Source of the DNA: Halichondria panicea
Lineage: Eukaryota; Porifera; Demospongiae; Suberitida; Halichondriidae
Reading direction: 5' to 3'
Assembly (NCBI RefSeq): GCF_963675165.1
Contig: NC_087386.1
Coordinates: 5,653,566-5,717,565, forward strand
Length of the DNA stretch: 64,000 bases
Below, one piece after another: positions 19,863 to 53,300 of this stretch. Numbering within the stretch: the stretch's first letter is position 1; the number at the start of each line of letters is the position of its first letter. Made by a program: the position numbers and the translations under genes. The notes beneath the pieces were generated by a model. The model was not told the origin of the DNA, did not search any database, and was given only the letters and a program-made list of their open reading frames with translations.

Positions 19863-22800
19863 ATGGCTACAAGAAGTGACCTTGATGCTCTGGTGGTCCA
19901 GGTGGAAGGATTGAATCTAGAGGAGAACAAAGCTGGCTCAGGGGCTTATGGCTGTGTCTTTAGAGTGACGGTGAATGGAAGACACTGCATTGCTAAGAAG
20001 CTTCACTCCATATTGCTCCAAGAGCGATCCCTTGGACAGAGGGAGAGCATTGTGACAAAGTTCAGAAATGAATGTCAAATTCTGAGTGTTTTACATCACC
20101 CCAACATAGTTGTTTTCGTTGGAGTCCATTACGGCCGCGATAAGAACGACATCAGTCTAATAATGGAGAGGCTTCATTCCGACTTGGCTGATTTCGTTGA
20201 AACCCATCGAGACACGAATATCGCCACTAGAATCCATATCCTGTATGATGTATCCAAGGGACTTCACTATCTCCACTCTTTGACCCCTCCCCTCATCCAT
20301 CGTGACCTCACTGCTCCCAACATCCTGCTCACTGACGACCTCACTGCCAAAATCGGAGACCTGGGCGTCTCCAGATACGTTGATCTGGAGAGATTGACTC
20401 ATGTTCTGACAAAAATTCCTGGAAATCCAACCTACATGCCTCCCGAGTGTCATGAAAAACGGCCCACCTACACTACCAAGCTGGACATCTTCTCATTCGG
20501 TCATCTCATCATTCACACTGTTATCGGTGATTTCCCTGAAGTCTCGTACTTTACTCCTGAGGTTATCAAGCACGTGGATGATGGGAAAATGGAGCTCATG
20601 CGTCGAAGCACTGCTGTCCATGGTGACAAAATGGGGGAGAAACACGCTCTTTATCCTCTTGTTGTTAGCTGCCTCCATGACCGACCTCAACAGAGACCAT
20701 CAGTTGACGAAGTGATTGTCTCACTCAGAAAGCTGTGTCTACAGCACCCCAGGATGGTACGTGAGTGAGTGGGTGGAGGTATCAAATGTGCATTGTCAGC
20801 TTATATAGTGTTAGTGTCGACTGTATGCTGGTACTTCTGTGTGGGTGGCTATAGAATCTTGAACAGTATATAACATGTACATACAATTTTTGTCATTCCA
20901 TCTTTTAATCAGGTGTGTTTGTGTATTTTCTCCTAGGCATTTGTAGATGCTTGTGAGACGGGTGATGTGGGTGTGGTTCTGGAGCTACTGGAGTGTGGGG
21001 CTGATCCCAACCAGGCAGACAAGGTGAGGGGAATACTGTCTACAGTGCCAATATGTCCGTTGGTTGATGATCTTGTCTCTACAGGATGGTTGGACTGCTC
21101 TTTACTGTGCCAGTAGGAATGGACATGATGAGATAGTGAGGGTCCTCTTAGCAGCCAAGGCTACAGTCAACACTCAGACCAAGGTTTGTTTTGTTGTACA
21201 AATAATTTCCCACAACATGCTGTTTACATTGTTTTCCTCCTATGTACTGGAGGGAGAGACCCCTCTTTGGACAGCCAGTTTCAATGGTCATCAGAAATGT
21301 ATGGAGCTCCTAATCGATGCTGGGGCCAATGTTGATGTACCCAGAGAGGTGAGTGTAAGTAGCTATATACACATAGCCTCGATTCCAGGCCGATTAAAGT
21401 ATGGCCTGGTACTTATTGCATGGTGATAGTGAGCATGTGATAGTTTATTCTCCAGAATCTGGGGAATCCCCTCTTTTCTTTCTTTCTATCTATGTACATC
21501 AGCTTAGCTCTCTATTGCGTTGTTCCAAAAGGCTTTCACACTAGTCTGAAGCCAAAAGAGGCTCTCATCCACCTCTATGACGGCTGTATGGTCAGGATGT
21601 CTTAGCTTAGATCTGTACAGGCTATGGGAAGTGTATGGTGCCTTTTGACTGCTTCTTGCGAAGACAACCTGGCTATAGGACCATCGTAGACGTAGATGAG
21701 AGCCTCCAAACTAGTGTTCAAGCCTTCTAAGCAATAGATACAGCTTCACGGAACTCAGTATGGAGATAAAATATTACAGAACATATTCTTAGTAAAGGGA
21801 CTAAATTACGGTTACTAAGGTTTTACGTTCGAAGTACGATTACCCATATTCTGCGTAATTTGAAGCGCATGCGCACTATCACCCATGCAATAGGTACCAG
21901 GCCACTTTACTGCTACTATACACACATCTCAGAGGCCACTAGCCACAGAGCCTCCCCATGTTCTGTTGACCTGGTTCATTAGACACCAGAGCTAGTCATG
22001 TTTGTGTAGAGAGCACTTGTAGTTGGTGTACCGAGGTACAACACGCATCTCGTGATCTATTCAAACAATTTTTACGTTGTTTTCAATGTAGTGTGTTCCC
22101 CACAATAACTCTTACTAAAGCTCAAGTATAGTATATATAGTTTAGACCTAGATCTAATTGTTTCCGTCGCTGAACCTGTAAACGTCATCACAATGGAATA
22201 TTCAAGTAAAAACAGTGTCATACCTCCTCTGCCCTGACATTAGCGTAGATAGTCATGTGATATTGTATGAGTGATATTGTGTAATGAGTGGATCTGTACT
22301 ATCTTGACTCTGTACAGGATGGAACGACAGCATTGTATGTAGCTGCTTGTTATGGTCATGTGAGGGCAGTGGAATTATTGATTGCTGCTAAAGCTAGAGT
22401 TGACATTCAAAATGAGGTGAGATTTACTAGAGTAGTGGATTGAGTAGTGGATTAGCTGGTCCAGTTGCGGGTTAGTGTAAAGCTGGAATGCGGAATAGAA
22501 CGGAATATGGAATGACTAAAAAGAGAGCTGCTGATGGTGCTCTGTATTTTTTTAGTGTAGTATGACTTAAATACTCCTTTTATAGACACAAAGCTAATTT
22601 TAGAAGACTATTATGTAAAAAAAGTAGACTGAGTATAATTATAGTAGCAACATTGAACATTACAAATACACATAATTATACGTGTCTATAGACTTAGCGA
22701 AGTAATTATGTTGTGCCCAAAGTAAGGTGGAGTGTGAAGTCTATAGCTATACAGGACACTCCAAAGCTATACCTTTCTTCAATCTGCATGCCTGCAAAGT

Positions 22801-36932: not shown

Positions 36933-39900
36933 ATGGCTACAAGAAGTGACCTTGATGCTCTGGTGGTCCAGGTGGAAGGATTGGGTATACAGGAGAACCA
37001 AGCTGGCTCAGGGGCTTATGGCTGTGTCTTTAGAGTGACGGTGAATGGAAGAGACTGCATTGCTAAGAAGCTTCATCACTTATTGCTCGAAGAGCGATAT
37101 CTTGGACAGAGGGAGAGCATTGTAGCGAAGTTCAGAAATGAGTGTCATATTCTGAGCGGTCTGGATCACCCCAACATTGTCGGTTTCGTTGGAGTCCATT
37201 ACGGCCGCGATAAGAACGACATCAGTCTAATAATGGAGAGGCTTCATTCCGACTTGGCTGATTTTATTGAAACCCATCGAGACACGAATATCGCCACTAG
37301 AATCCATATCCTGTATGATGTATCCAAAGGCCTTCACTATCTCCACTCTCTAACCCCTCCCCTCATCCATCGTGACCTCACTGCTCCCAACATCCTGCTC
37401 ACTGAGGACCTCACTGCCAAGATCGGAGACCTGGGTGTCTCCAGATACGTGGACCTGGAGAGACTAACTCAAATTGTTCTAACAAGTACCCCAGGAAATG
37501 CAGGCTACATGCCTCCCGAGTGTCACGTGGAACGGCCCACCTACACTACCAAGCTGGACATCTTCTCATTCGGTCATCTCATCATTCACACTGTTATCGG
37601 CGATTTCCCTAAAGTCTACGACATACTTCGAAGTGATCCCAACTATTTCAAATATATTAACGATGGAAAAGAGGAGATCATGCGTCGAAGTACTGCTGTC
37701 CATGGTGACAAAATGGGGGAGAAACACGCTCTTTATCCTCTTGTTGTTAGCTGCCTTCATGACCGACCTCAACAGAGACCATCAGTTGACGAAGTGATTG
37801 TCTCACTCAGAAAGCTGTGTCTACAGCACCCCAGGATGGTACGTGAGTGAGTGGGTGGAGGTATCAAATGTGCATTGTCAGCTTATAAAGTCGACTGTAT
37901 GCTGGTACTTCTGTGTGGGTGGCTATAGAATCTTGAACAGTATATAACATGTACATACAATTTTCGTCATTCCGGGTGTGTTTACTGATAGTGTATTTTC
38001 TCCCAGGCATTTCTGGATGCTTGTAAGACAGGTGATGTGGGTGTGGTTCTGGAGCTACTGGAGTGTGGGGCTGATCCCAACCAGGCAGACAAGGTGAGGG
38101 GAATACTGTCTACAGTGCCAATATGTCCGTTGGTTGATGATCTTGTCTCCACAGGATGGTGTAACTGCTCTTCACTGGGCTAGTAATAATGGACATGATG
38201 AGATAGTGAGGGTCCTCTTAACAGCCAAAGCTACAGTCAACACTCAGACCAAGGTTGGTTTTGTTGTACAAACACATTTCCCACAACATGCTGTTTACTT
38301 TGTTTTCCTCCTATGTACAGTCGGGACGGACCCCTCTTTACACAGCCAGTTTCAATGGTCACCAGAAATGTATGGAGCTCCTAATCGATGCTGGGGCCAA
38401 TGTTGATGTACCCAAAGAGGTGAGTGTAAGTAGCTGTACACATAGCCTCGATTCCAGGCCAATTAAAGTACGGCCTGGTACTTATTGCATGGTGATAGTG
38501 AGCATGTGATAGTTTATTCTCCAGAATCTGGGGAATCCCCTGTTTTCTTTTTCTATCTATGTACATCAGCTTAGCTCTCTATTGCGTTGTTCCAGAAGGC
38601 TTTCACACTAGTCTGATGCCAAAATAGGTTCTCATCCACCTCTATGACGGCTGTATGGTCAGGATATCTTAGCTTAGATCTGTACAGGCTATGGGAAGTG
38701 TATGGTGCCTCTTGACTGCTTCTTGCGAAGACAACCTGGCTATAGGACCATCGTAGACGTAGATGTAGATGAGAGCCTCCAAACTAGTGTTCAAGCCTTC
38801 TAAGCAATAGATACAGCTTCACGGAACTCAGTATGGAGATAAAATATTACGGAACATAATAATTCTTAGTAAATTACGGGTACTAAGGTTTTACGTTCGT
38901 AGTACGATTACCCATATTCTGAAGGTACCAGGCTGTATTTTAATGCGGCCTGGAATCGAGGCTACTATACACACATCTCAGAGGCCACTAGCCACAGAGC
39001 CTCCCCATGTTCTGTTGACCTGGTCCATTAGACACCAGAGCTAGTCATGTTTGTGTAGAGAGCACTGGTAGTTGGTGTACCGAGGTACGACACGCATCTC
39101 GTGATCTATTCAAACAATTTTTACGTTGTTTTCAATGTAGTGTGTTCCCCACAATAACTCTTACTAAAGCTCAAGTATAGTATATATAGTTTAGACCTAG
39201 ATCTAACTGTTTCCGTCGCTGAACCTGTAAACGTCATTACAATGGAATATTTAAGTAAAAACAGTGTCGTACCTCCTCTGCCCTGACATTAGTGTAGATA
39301 GTCATGTGATATTGTATGAGTGATATTGTGTAATGAGTGGATCTGTACTATCTTGACTCTGTACAGGATGGAGCCACTGCATTGATGGTAGCTGCTCAGA
39401 ATGGTCATGTGAGGGCAGTGGAAGTCTTGATTGCTGCCAAGGCTGGAGTTGACATTCAAAAGAAGGTGAGATTTACTAGAGTAGTGGATTGAGTAGTGGA
39501 TTAGCTGGCCCAGTTGCGGGTTAGTGTAAAAGCTGGAATGCGGAATGGAACGGAATATGGAATGACTAAAAAGAGAGCTGCTGATGGTGCTCTGTATTTT
39601 TTTAGTGTAGTATGACTTAAATACTTGTAAAAAGTGCTACAGAATCCTTTTATAGACACAAAGCTAATTTTAGAAGACTATTATTATAGGAGTAAAAAGT
39701 ACACTGAGTATAATTATAGTAGCAACATTGAACATTACAAATACACATAATTATACGTGTCTATAGACTTAGCGAAGTAATTATGTTGTGCCCAAAGTAA
39801 GGTGGAGTGTGAAGTCTATAGCTATACAGGACACTCCAAAGCTATACCTTTCTTCATTCTGCATGCCTGCAAAGTTTTGGCCCTTGGTGAAACTTTAAAC

Positions 39901-46032: not shown

Positions 46033-46343
46033 ATAAGCCACTATCTAAAACCTTACTCCATACGATGTATAATTATTAATTTTCTCTCACCTTCCATCGA
46101 CAGCATCAAAGAGGGTGTAGTTGAAGTTGAGCTCGTCCAGGCTTAAAATCATCCGGTTCCTTCTTTCTGGCCTCCGTACTAGCCCAATCATGAACACCTA
46201 CCAAATATTGTTTGGAAATTATTAGTGAACTTTTATGATTTCCGTACACAAACAACATAACTGTAATAGTAGAGACAGCTTACCGCGTCCAACCCCAAGT
46301 TGTTCTTGACAGGGGGTGGTCTGGAGATGTACTGACTGTACAG

Positions 46344-47090
46344 TATAGGGGGGTGGTCCACCGTGTGGGGGGAGACAACACGCACACTAATGCAGTATAG
46401 GGGGGTGGTCCACTGTGTGGGGGGAGACAATACACTAATGCAGTATAGGGGGGTGGTCCACTGTGTGGGGGGAGACAATACACTAATGCAGTATAGGGGG
46501 GTGGTCCACCGTGTGGGGGGAGACAATACACTAATGCAGTATAGGGGGGTGGTCCACCGTGTGGGGGGAGACAACACACACACTAATGCAGTATAGGGGG
46601 GTGGTCCACTGTGTGGGGGGAGACAATACACTAATGCAGTATAGGGGGGTGGTCCACCGTGTGGGGGGAGACAACACACACACTAATGCAGTATAGGGGG
46701 GTGGTCCACCGTGTGGGGGGAGACAACACACACACTAATGCAGTATAGGGGGGTGGTCCACTGTGTGGGGGGAGACAACACGCACACTAATGCAGTATAG
46801 GGGGGGTGGTCCACTGTGTGGGGGGAGACAACACACACACTAATGCAGTATAGGGGGGTGGTCCACTGTGTGGGGGGAGACAATACACACACTAATGCAG
46901 TATAGGGGGGTGGTCCACTGTGTGGGGGGGGAGACAATACACACTAATGCAGTATAGGGGGGTGGTCCACCATGTGGGGGAGAGACAATACACACACTAA
47001 TGCAGTATAGGGGGGTGGTCCACTGTGTGGGGGGGGGAGACAATACACACACTAATGCAGTATAGGGGGTGGTCCACTGTGTGGGGGGAG
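46344..47090. repeat. 52-bp minisatellite, array 3 (about 15 units)
   Basis: About 15 units, several shortened to about 46-48 bp by loss of CACACA. The right end stops abruptly at GGGGGGAGCCTATTACTAG, unlike arrays 1, 2 and 4, which all end in ACTAATGGATACACAGTC; that flank has been lost here. Confidence 0.95.
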
Positions 47091-50399: not shown

Positions 50400-53300
50400 A
50401 TGGCTACAAGAAGTGACCTTGATGCTCTGGTGGTCCAGGTGGAAGGATTGGGTCTAGAGGAGAACAAAGCTGGTCATGGGGCTTATGGCTGTGTCTTTAG
50501 AGTGACGGTGAATGGAAGAGACTGCATTGCTAAGAAGGTACACCACATATTGCTCCAAGAGCAATCCCTTGGACAGAGGGAGAGGATTTTAACAAATTTC
50601 CGTCATGAGTGTCATATTCTGAGCGGTCTGGATCACCCTAACATTGTCGGTTTCGTTGGAGTCCATTACGGCCGCGATAAGAACGACATCAGTCTAATAA
50701 TGGAGAGGCTTCATTCCGACTTGGCCAAATTCCTTGAAACCCATCGAGACACGAATATCGCCACTAGAATCCATATCCTGTATGATGTATCCAAGGGCCT
50801 ACACTATCTCCACTCTCTGACCCCTCCCCTCATCCATCGTGACCTCACTGCTCCCAACATCCTGCTCACTGAGGACCTCACTGCCAAGATCGGAGACCTG
50901 GGTGTCTCCAGGTATGTTTTGTTTTTTTGCAACAAAGGAAAATGTTTTTTTTTTATGAGTTAGAGACAAAAAGGAGATTTACTTAAGGCCACTCCAAGTG
51001 ATACTCTGGTTTCTGGTCCACCGCCCGCATCAGATTTTATTCTTGGATTTCTATCTCATTATTAGCCTCCTTCACCGGCCTTCCCTAGCGGGAAATGCGG
51101 CCTGGGATCGAGGCTATCTCATTATTGGATTTCTATCTCATTATTTCTACTACGCATGCGCAAAATGGTCCATGTGGTACAAAATGTGTGATAATGATAT
51201 TCATTTGCAAAATGATGAGATTCATAAGGTGAAATTGATAATGACATAATGAGAAAAGCCGCCCGCCCGCATGCAATTAGAAAAACTTCAGGACCAGAAA
51301 CCAGAGTGTCACTTGGAGTGGCCTAATGTGGGAAAACAAAGGCAGACATGTAAAACCTAATGTTCATTTGCAGGTATGTTGATCTGGAGAGATTGACTCA
51401 TGTTCTGACAAACGTCCCGGGAAATCCAACCTACATGCCTCCCGAGTGTCATGTGGAGCCGCCCACCTACACTACCAAGCTGGACATCTTCTCATTCGGT
51501 CATCTCATCATTCACACTGTTATTGGTGATTTCCCTAAAGTCAAGAACGTACCTCAAAGTATTCGCAACTATTTCAACTCTATCAGAGGAAAGGAGGAGC
51601 TCATGCGTCGAAGCACTGCTGTCCATGGTGACAAAATGGGGGAGAAACACGCTCTTTATCCTCTTGTTGTTAGCTGCCTCCATGACCGACCTCAACAGAG
51701 ACCATCAGTTGACGAAGTGATTGTCTCACTCAGAAAGCTGTGTCTACAGCACCCCAGGATGGTACGTGAGTGAGTGGGTGGAGGTATCAAATGTGCATTG
51801 TCAGCTTATATAGTGTTAGTGTCGACTGTATGCTGGTACTTCTGTGTGGGTGGCTATAGAATCTTGAACAGTATATAACATGTACATAACAATTTTTGTC
51901 ATTCCATATTTTGGGTGTGTTTACTGATAATGTATTTTCTCCCAGGAATTTCTGGATGCTTGTAAGACGGGCAATGTGGGTGTGGTTCTGGAGCTACTTG
52001 AGTGTGGGGCTGATCCCAACCAGGCAGACAAGGTGAGGGGAATACTGTCTACAGTGCCAAATGTCCGTTAGTTAATGATATTGTCTCTACAGGATGGTGC
52101 AACTGCTCTTTTCTGGGCCAGTAGGAATGGACATGATGAGATAGTGAGGGTCCTCTTAGCAGCCAAGGCTACAGTCAACACTCAGAACAAGGTTGGTTTT
52201 GTTGTACAAACACATTTCCTACAATTTCCTTTTACATTGTTTTCCTCCTATGTACAGTGGGGAGAGACCTCTCTTTGGATAGCTAGTTTCTATGGTCACC
52301 AGAAATGTATGGAGCTCCTAATTGACCCTGGGGCCAATGTTGATGTACCCAATGAGGTGAGTGTAAGTAGCTATATACACATAGCCTCGATTCCAGGCCG
52401 ATTAAAGTACGGCCTGGTACTTATTGCATGGTGATAGTGAGCATGTGATACCAGAATCTGGGGAATCCCCTCTATTCTTTCTTCCCGATCTATTTGCTAT
52501 CTATGTACATCAGCTTAGCTCTCTATTGTGTTGTTCCAGAAGGCTTTCACACTAGTCTGAAGCCAGAAGAGGCTCTCATCCACCTCTATGACGGCTGTAT
52601 GGTCAGGATATCTTAGCTTTGATCTGTACAGGCTGTGGGAAGTGTATGGTGCCTCTTGACTGCTTCTTGCGAAGAAAACCTGGCTATAGGACCATCGTGG
52701 ACGTAGATGAGAGCCTCTAAACTAGTGTTCAAGCCTTCTAAGCAATAGATACAGCTTCACGGAACTCAGTATGGAGATAAAATATTACGGAACATATTCT
52801 TAGTAAAGGGACTAAATTACGGGTACTAAGGTTTTACGTTTGTAGTACGATTACCATATTCAGGCTGTATTTAATGCCGCCTGGAATCAAGGCTACTATA
52901 CACACATCTCAGAGGCCACTAGCCACAGAGCCTCCCCATGTTCTGTTGACCTGGTCCATTAGACACCAGAGCTAGTCATGTTTGTGTAGAGAGCACTGGT
53001 AGTTGGTGTACCGAGGTACGACACGCATCTCGTGATCTCTCTTTTAATTGCATTCCAATGTAATGCACAATAACTTTGACGAAGGTTCAAGGGTAGTATA
53101 GTTTAGACCTAGAGGTAACTGTTCCGTCGCTGAACCCGTAAACGTCATTACAATGGAATATTCAATTAAAAAACAATATCGTACCTCCTCTGCCCTGACA
53201 TTAGTGTAGATAGTCATGTGATATTGTATGAGTGATATTGTGTAATGAGTGGATCTGTACTATCTTGACTCTGTACAGGATGGAGCCACAGCATTGTGGG

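Follow-up and report, generated by a model that had tools for sequence, protein, structure and literature searches.

An intron shared by 18 kinase paralogs of the sponge Halichondria panicea probably derives from the tail of a LINE-like retrotransposon

Background

The origin of spliceosomal introns is an old question, and the inserter, the target and the empty sites are rarely all readable. Is an intron in a kinase gene of the sponge Halichondria panicea such a case, and if so, in which gene was it born and what was inserted? The window, by which we mean the whole 64 kb stretch of DNA analysed, is C10:5653566-5717565 in a genome of 131 Mb on 39 contigs. Three of its genes, called A, B and C, have a kinase domain, which in B was matched to Pfam Pkinase. 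A is 88% identical to B, and the two parts of C are 91% and 85% identical to it. As the original prediction stated, the domain is one open reading frame in A and B, and in C it is split by 462 bp at 50911/51374. The prediction went on to claim that a spliceosomal-type intron was gained in gene C by insertion at an AGGT site. We argue that this mode of gain stands, but that the place of origin does not. The parts of the three genes are:

19863..20768, plus strand: kinase ORF of gene A, uninterrupted; both parts of the exon have intron-bearing paralogs as their nearest matches
36933..37850, plus strand: kinase ORF of gene B, uninterrupted; three of four trees place it apart from the intron-bearing genes
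50400..50911, plus strand: 5' part of the gene C kinase exon, ending in ...GDLGVS and the AG of an Arg codon
50912..51373, plus strand: gene C intron, GT...AG, spliceosomal-type, 462 bp
51374..51761, plus strand: 3' part of the gene C kinase exon, up to the donor ATG/GTACGTGAGT, which three NCBI sister-gene models splice

Results and discussion

The intron is common to 18 paralogs

When 50911 is joined to 51374 a 303-codon frame is restored in C. Downstream of ATG/GTACGTGAGT the NCBI models of the three sister genes continue into ankyrin-domain parts. One can imagine that gene C is instead a pseudogene cut short by insertions and has no intron at all, since its unspliced frame stops at 50963 and an NCBI model for C was not identified. 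The paralogs argue against this. The genome was searched with B's kinase, which gave 134 rows (129 of 776 candidates scored). Among the matches listed, the match is broken at the same residue in at least 18 genes of the C10 array (36 rows). The introns are homologous in all 18 and are 86-123 bp long in 17 of them (the ends in L056 were placed by hand), while the 462 bp of gene C consist of 122 bp of this shared intron, a 337-bp MITE and a 3-bp TAA duplication. Every one of the 18 coding sequences is open and in frame once GT...AG is removed, and 14 of the intron lengths are not a multiple of three. NCBI models were traced in four intron-bearing sisters (L041/L040, L046, L052 and L056), and all four are spliced exactly at this junction. 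Two were traced whole (303/303 and 346/346 aa) and two more through the junction and on (411/499 and 420/475 aa, the remainder lying outside the studied loci). These models are LOC-numbered or kinase-named and we take them as RefSeq; their basis may be RNA or prediction. The GT...AG ends, the restored frame and the four annotated sisters together indicate a spliceosomal GT-AG intron at this codon, and gene C itself is presumably spliced here. GT...AG ends with intact flanking frames in all 18 copies of variable length make a pseudogene very improbable.

Since 18 paralogs carry the intron, the event private to C is its MITE. Birth of the intron in gene C is ruled out by the homologous intron in 17 other array genes. 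The repeat CAGGTATGTT at both junctions and the uninterrupted A and B had made such a birth look plausible, but the intron of L044 is near-identical to C's apart from the MITE, and A is placed among intron-bearing genes. We leave that scenario practically no chance.

The array is a treacherous source of outgroups

The full tree has 45 rows, with six broken or partial rows dropped (L022, L036, L037, L049, L057 and L058). From the three other trees (junction left out, and each exon alone) L038 was dropped too. The array clade has 31 rows (one on C13), of which 18 have the intron and 13 do not. All rows outside it in the full tree are intronless: L023, ten C17 genes, L034, L035 and L038. Uninterrupted CAGGTATGT is found in L012, L015, L017, L018 and L020 and in seven of the ten C17 genes (L027-L033). 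The intron-bearing genes as one clade are rejected by the AU test (p-AU 7.9e-06), so a single gain requires several losses or conversions. The number of intron changes needed is 5 on the full tree, and 7, 6 and 7 on the junction-less and single-exon trees.

Gene A illustrates the problem. Its 5' part is nearest to intron-bearing L040-L042 (5/452 differences) and its 3' part to intron-bearing L053 (7/346). At the junction it differs from intronless L010 at 2/48 positions and from intron-bearing L039-L041 at 3/48. L012 likewise has intron-type flanks, and its junction is that of intronless L017, L018 and L020 (0/48), with intron-bearing L048 at 1/48. Windows of 48 positions are too alike to prove conversion at A's junction. 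Gene conversion between array members may nevertheless be called the likeliest cause of the patchy intron presence. Because its flanks and its place in the trees are among the intron-bearing genes, A is not the clean outgroup it was taken for. B fares better. Three of the four trees place it outside all other rows of the array clade, where support is modest (84/78 to 94/80), and the fourth tree gives no resolution. B thus appears nearer to a clean outgroup than A.

In L048, L043 and L012 the two parts of the exon have different paralogs as their closest relatives, which suggests recombination in the array. L049 (C10:5051251), L022 (C10:5737314) and L036 (C1:11234381) are kinase copies with several stops and probable pseudogenes. 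A short repeat present in the flank of L081 (C3) is found again near many array kinase genes, in the window at 21388, 21846, 24505, 38457, 52396 and 55483. The minus strand of 46233-46679 holds a 148-aa frame of SPPTQWTTPLYCISV-like repeated units that is minisatellite-like.

The intron body resembles a LINE-like tail

The original prediction could not name the family of the inserter, since the outer parts of the intron show no clear inverted ends, and proposed a genome search for their copies. Such a search with the whole 462-bp intron as query, in which 40 of 554 candidates were scored, gave MITE copies and none for the outer ends. The intron of L044, which has no MITE, led to a dispersed repeat on C4, outside the cluster, with an E-value of 2.4e-12. 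From that copy on we reached others on C6, C9 and C2, then on C3, C11, C14 and C16, and a young group of tail copies on C17, C12, C8 and elsewhere. The inserter can be identified as a LINE-like tail, and the parts of the gene C intron that match it are:

50945..50986, minus strand: second T-run and first LINE 3'-tail homology (ATGAGTTAGAGACAAAAA...)
51327..51372, minus strand: second LINE 3'-tail homology, reaching the acceptor

When five introns were compared with 11 copies the best scores were 55-76 bits, against 30-39 for the highest score among 500 dinucleotide shuffles per intron. Three young copies were fetched. In the orientation of the intron they start with the T-run, each after different flanks, and then enter the reverse complement of a coding end. 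The copies on C4, C6, C9 and C16 extend beyond the point where the intron stops, so the intron is 5'-truncated relative to longer copies. The C-terminal peptide of the parent frame was found at 150 scored places (of 383 candidates). Of the 17 tail places, 10 have it no more than about 300 bp away, in frames of up to 986 aa.

A stretch of 383 aa from the 986-aa frame is predicted to be a reverse transcriptase of LINE type. Alone it scores 24.5 bits with PF00078, below the Pfam cut-off of 29.6, and PF00078 is found in 22 of its 24 aligned relatives. Its fold has a pLDDT of 36.3 without an alignment and 74.9 with alignment A1. The model is nearest LINE-1 ORF2p (E 7.7e-07, ranks 1-7), followed by the G2L4 reverse transcriptase and R2; a sequence profile of the stretch puts solved R2 proteins first, weakly (best E 0.0082). 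Among 120 listed relatives of the reverse transcriptase, from a search whose length limits exclude longer proteins, the first C-terminal piece of the parent occurs in 34, the second in 3 and the third in 1, and P0230 has all three. The C-terminal pieces themselves hit nothing in NCBIfam, and in Pfam a single weak match without relevance. Frames of at least 120 aa in the longer-copy candidates L067-L070, L072 and L074, were inspected by eye, and none was taken for a reverse transcriptase.

The tail homology, the T-run and the frames encoding a reverse transcriptase next to tail copies make the intron body, as far as sequence can tell, an antisense, 5'-truncated 3' tail of a LINE-like retrotransposon. 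It must be noted that the first 30 or so nt of the intron lie outside the LINE homology and contain a non-T stretch (GCAACAAAGG...), and that the nearest tail copies, on C2 and C4, are without a clear poly-T.

The truncation deserves a second look. The tail copies L077 (C2) and L083 (C14) stop at almost the same point as the kinase introns, to within a few bases, at CATTCG. This could be a recurrent truncation point or the end of a short non-autonomous form. In the latter case the inserter would be a SINE-like element with a LINE tail and a fixed 5' end near CATTCG, and the coincidence of these ends speaks for this. Only three such ends were seen, and the copies on C4, C6, C9 and C16 pass that point, three of them into the end of the ORF. 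We consider a SINE-like inserter unlikely and keep to the truncated LINE-like tail.

An older origin must also be considered. An ancient intron of the kinase family could have been lost in the intronless genes, with the LINE tail and the MITE arriving inside it later. Its patchy presence in the array clade, where losses or conversions must have happened, is in keeping with this. The intron does occur in many kinases of the family, but all 18 genes belong to the one array clade; among the 98 other rows listed (129 of 776 candidates scored), 95 are unbroken at the site and 3 stop short of it. The LINE homology that reaches the acceptor, together with the T-rich stretch that starts from the donor repeat, would leave only about 20-30 nt for the old intron, and the repeat at its junctions would be chance. 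An old intron is distinctly improbable.

The junctions probably record the target

The sequences at the ends of the gene C intron are:

50909..50918, plus strand: left copy of CAGGTATGTT, a probable target duplication; contains the donor AG/GTATGT
50917..50928, minus strand: outer T-rich run against the left repeat, a putative antisense LINE poly-A tail
51371..51380, plus strand: right copy of CAGGTATGTT; its CAG stands at the acceptor and exon GTATGTT comes next

The original prediction placed CAGGTATGTT at both junctions, and these are its only two occurrences in the 64 kb. Within 50860-51420 there is no exon-intron repeat beyond this 10-bp one. The prediction had also put A and B at two substitutions from C, and this holds too. 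Over the first nine bases both read CAGATACGT, against the CAGGTATGT of C. Over the ten positions the junction repeat is exact in 10 of the 18 introns, has one mismatch in 3 and two mismatches in 5. The last are L043, L048, L050, L052 and L053, whose donor GTACGTA is two mismatches from the right copy. The repeat is 9-11 bp long in the 11 GTATG copies and 6 bp in the 7 GTACG copies. Four distinct introns elsewhere in three sister genes (8 instances) show 2-3 bp of repeat at their junctions, so the repeats at the kinase intron are more than chance. The sequence next to the left repeat is T-rich by eye in 17 of the 18 introns, although short in L045, and is interrupted by the non-T stretch mentioned above. 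Gain by tandem duplication of an AGGT exon segment was rejected; the intron body matches the dispersed LINE tail instead.

Did the target duplication supply both splice sites, as was claimed? The donor AG/GTATGT lies inside the left repeat and is taken from the duplication, and splicing would rebuild the codons. The acceptor is another matter. Dispersed copies have their right end at ATTCGCA (C4) or ATTCGCAG (C16). Because the copy on C16 reads CATTCGCAG, the acceptor CAG is perhaps the element's own, and this makes the true length of the duplication ambiguous. The acceptor AG may come from the element, from the duplication, or from an overlap common to both.

We consider it likely that the intron was made by target-primed retrotransposition of a LINE-like element into an AGGT protosplice site and was then spread and erased within the array. 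The RNA of a LINE-like (non-LTR) element would have been reverse-transcribed by target priming into the kinase exon of an ancestor of the C10 array. The insertion site would have been CAGGTATGTT and the orientation antisense to the gene. We infer that the nicked top strand ...TATGTT primed on the poly-A tail. An early stop of copying would leave about 110 bp of the 3' tail, and repair would duplicate the target. The upstream target copy would then provide the donor AG/GTATGT, and the element's antisense end, ATTYGCA or ATTYGCAG, would provide the acceptor, alone or with the duplicated CAG. Excision would rebuild TCC-AGG-TAT-GTT. Tandem duplication, and probably gene conversion, would have carried the junction into 18 paralogs, while other genes kept or regained the intronless form. 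The MITE would have entered the gene C copy later.

Short direct repeats are also produced when a double-strand break is repaired (PMC3443670), so the tail could be filler DNA copied from a LINE. A left end that is partly not LINE-like would suit this. The inserted piece, however, comes from the element's 3' end and has its T-rich tail next to the repeat, which is what target priming predicts. We regard break repair as quite unlikely, and target priming as the better reading of these ends.

The MITE is the later event

Two features of the gene C intron belong to the MITE:

50987..51323, plus strand: MITE, 337 bp, TIR GGCCACTCCAAGTG, TAA duplication at 50984-50986 and 51324-51326
51063..51124, no strand assigned: nested gain in the MITE, about 51 bp TAGCCTC...GAGGC plus the 11-bp repeat TATCTCATTAT

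Both had been predicted, and both are borne out. The MITE is flanked by TAA on either side inside the intron, and the nested element accounts for a 62-bp gain that separates the 337/338-bp form from the 275-bp form. The gain is present in C, L002 and L003 and missing from the shorter form, for example in L004. The other 17 introns have no MITE. In L044, the nearest gene, the site is empty and reads TTTACTTAATGTGGG, against TTTACTTAA-[337-bp MITE]-TAATGTGGG in C. Apart from the MITE the two introns differ, by eye, in one T of the T-run and one substitution. The MITE copies in L002-L008 have TAA or TTA flanks on both sides, a PIF/Harbinger-like mark. Two size forms of the MITE are seen, of about 275 and 337 bp, the longer with the nested palindromic element. 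L006 and L007 have two MITE copies each, in opposite orientation.

A candidate branch site

Was the tail a working intron as soon as it was inserted? One further feature bears on this:

51357..51361, plus strand: CTAAT, candidate branch site, G-to-T relative to six comparable dispersed copies

A genome-wide pattern search (3 mismatches at most, with both positions compared below left free) gave 24 matches, with 1 in the reversed control. The matches are the introns of the 18 array genes and 6 dispersed copies; near-identical introns at many unrelated gene positions were not found by it. The young group and the copies on C3 and C11 are further from the pattern and were left out of the comparison. 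At the first position all 18 introns have T where all six dispersed copies have G (CCTAAT, ACTAAT or CCTACT against CCGAAT or CTGAAT). At the second all 18 have T where the six have C (TTTGC or TTTAC against TTCGC, TTCGT or TTCAT). CTAAT is present in 17 of the 18 introns and is consistent with the usual branch-site consensus. We infer that these two differences made a CTAAT-like candidate branch site and gave the acceptor more T. The changes may have improved the introns once the tail was in place, or the copy that was inserted may have brought them along. It is possible, and we put it forward only tentatively, that the insertion was a working intron at once, that selection tuned it through the G-to-T and C-to-T changes, and that the array circulates its plus and minus forms by gene conversion.

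Comparison with known systems

Doc is a LINE. In Drosophila sechellia GM26034 the insertion of Doc1053, with target duplications, produced a new intron (Yenerall et al. 2011, PMC3296678). From what that article relates of this gene, the sponge case is similar, in that a retrotransposon with target duplications made an intron in an animal gene. In Doc1053 the downstream duplication is 15 nt past the intron end, and sequence was added with the frame unchanged. The sponge intron, unlike it, has its junctions in the repeat, rebuilds the codons exactly, consists of an antisense tail only, and is present in 18 paralogs.

Introners (Gozashti et al. 2022, PMC9860276) form families found at many gene sites, and DNA transposition is the mode that fits them best. 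The sponge intron is transposon-derived like them, and the mode that the article gives for Symbiodinium, with the 5' splice site from the duplication and the 3' site carried in, is the one that resembles it. It differs in having one insertion site, copied by gene duplication, and a LINE-like source. The sponge intron works like an Introner without the many independent sites that define one. The whole words 'sponge' and 'retrotransposon' (singular) do not occur in the main text of PMC9860276.

Insertion at an AGGT protosplice site, where the AGGT is duplicated, the element intronized and the coding sequence left unchanged, is a recognised route (PMC3443670). The sponge intron follows it, except that its acceptor AG may be the element's own. 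We found no report of a LINE-made intron in a sponge, or of this kind of intron in H. panicea, in the open-licence PMC literature.

Conclusions

All three pieces of evidence on intron birth are present here: a LINE-like tail, the uninterrupted target in intronless paralogs, and 18 intron-bearing copies near intronless ones. Since the inserter, the target and the empty sites can all be read, the change needed to turn an inserted tail into an intron can be tested directly. The array also carries a warning, because in a recombining gene array an intronless sister gene can be a false outgroup. With that in mind, a probable mechanism of an intron's birth is readable from the DNA of this sponge.
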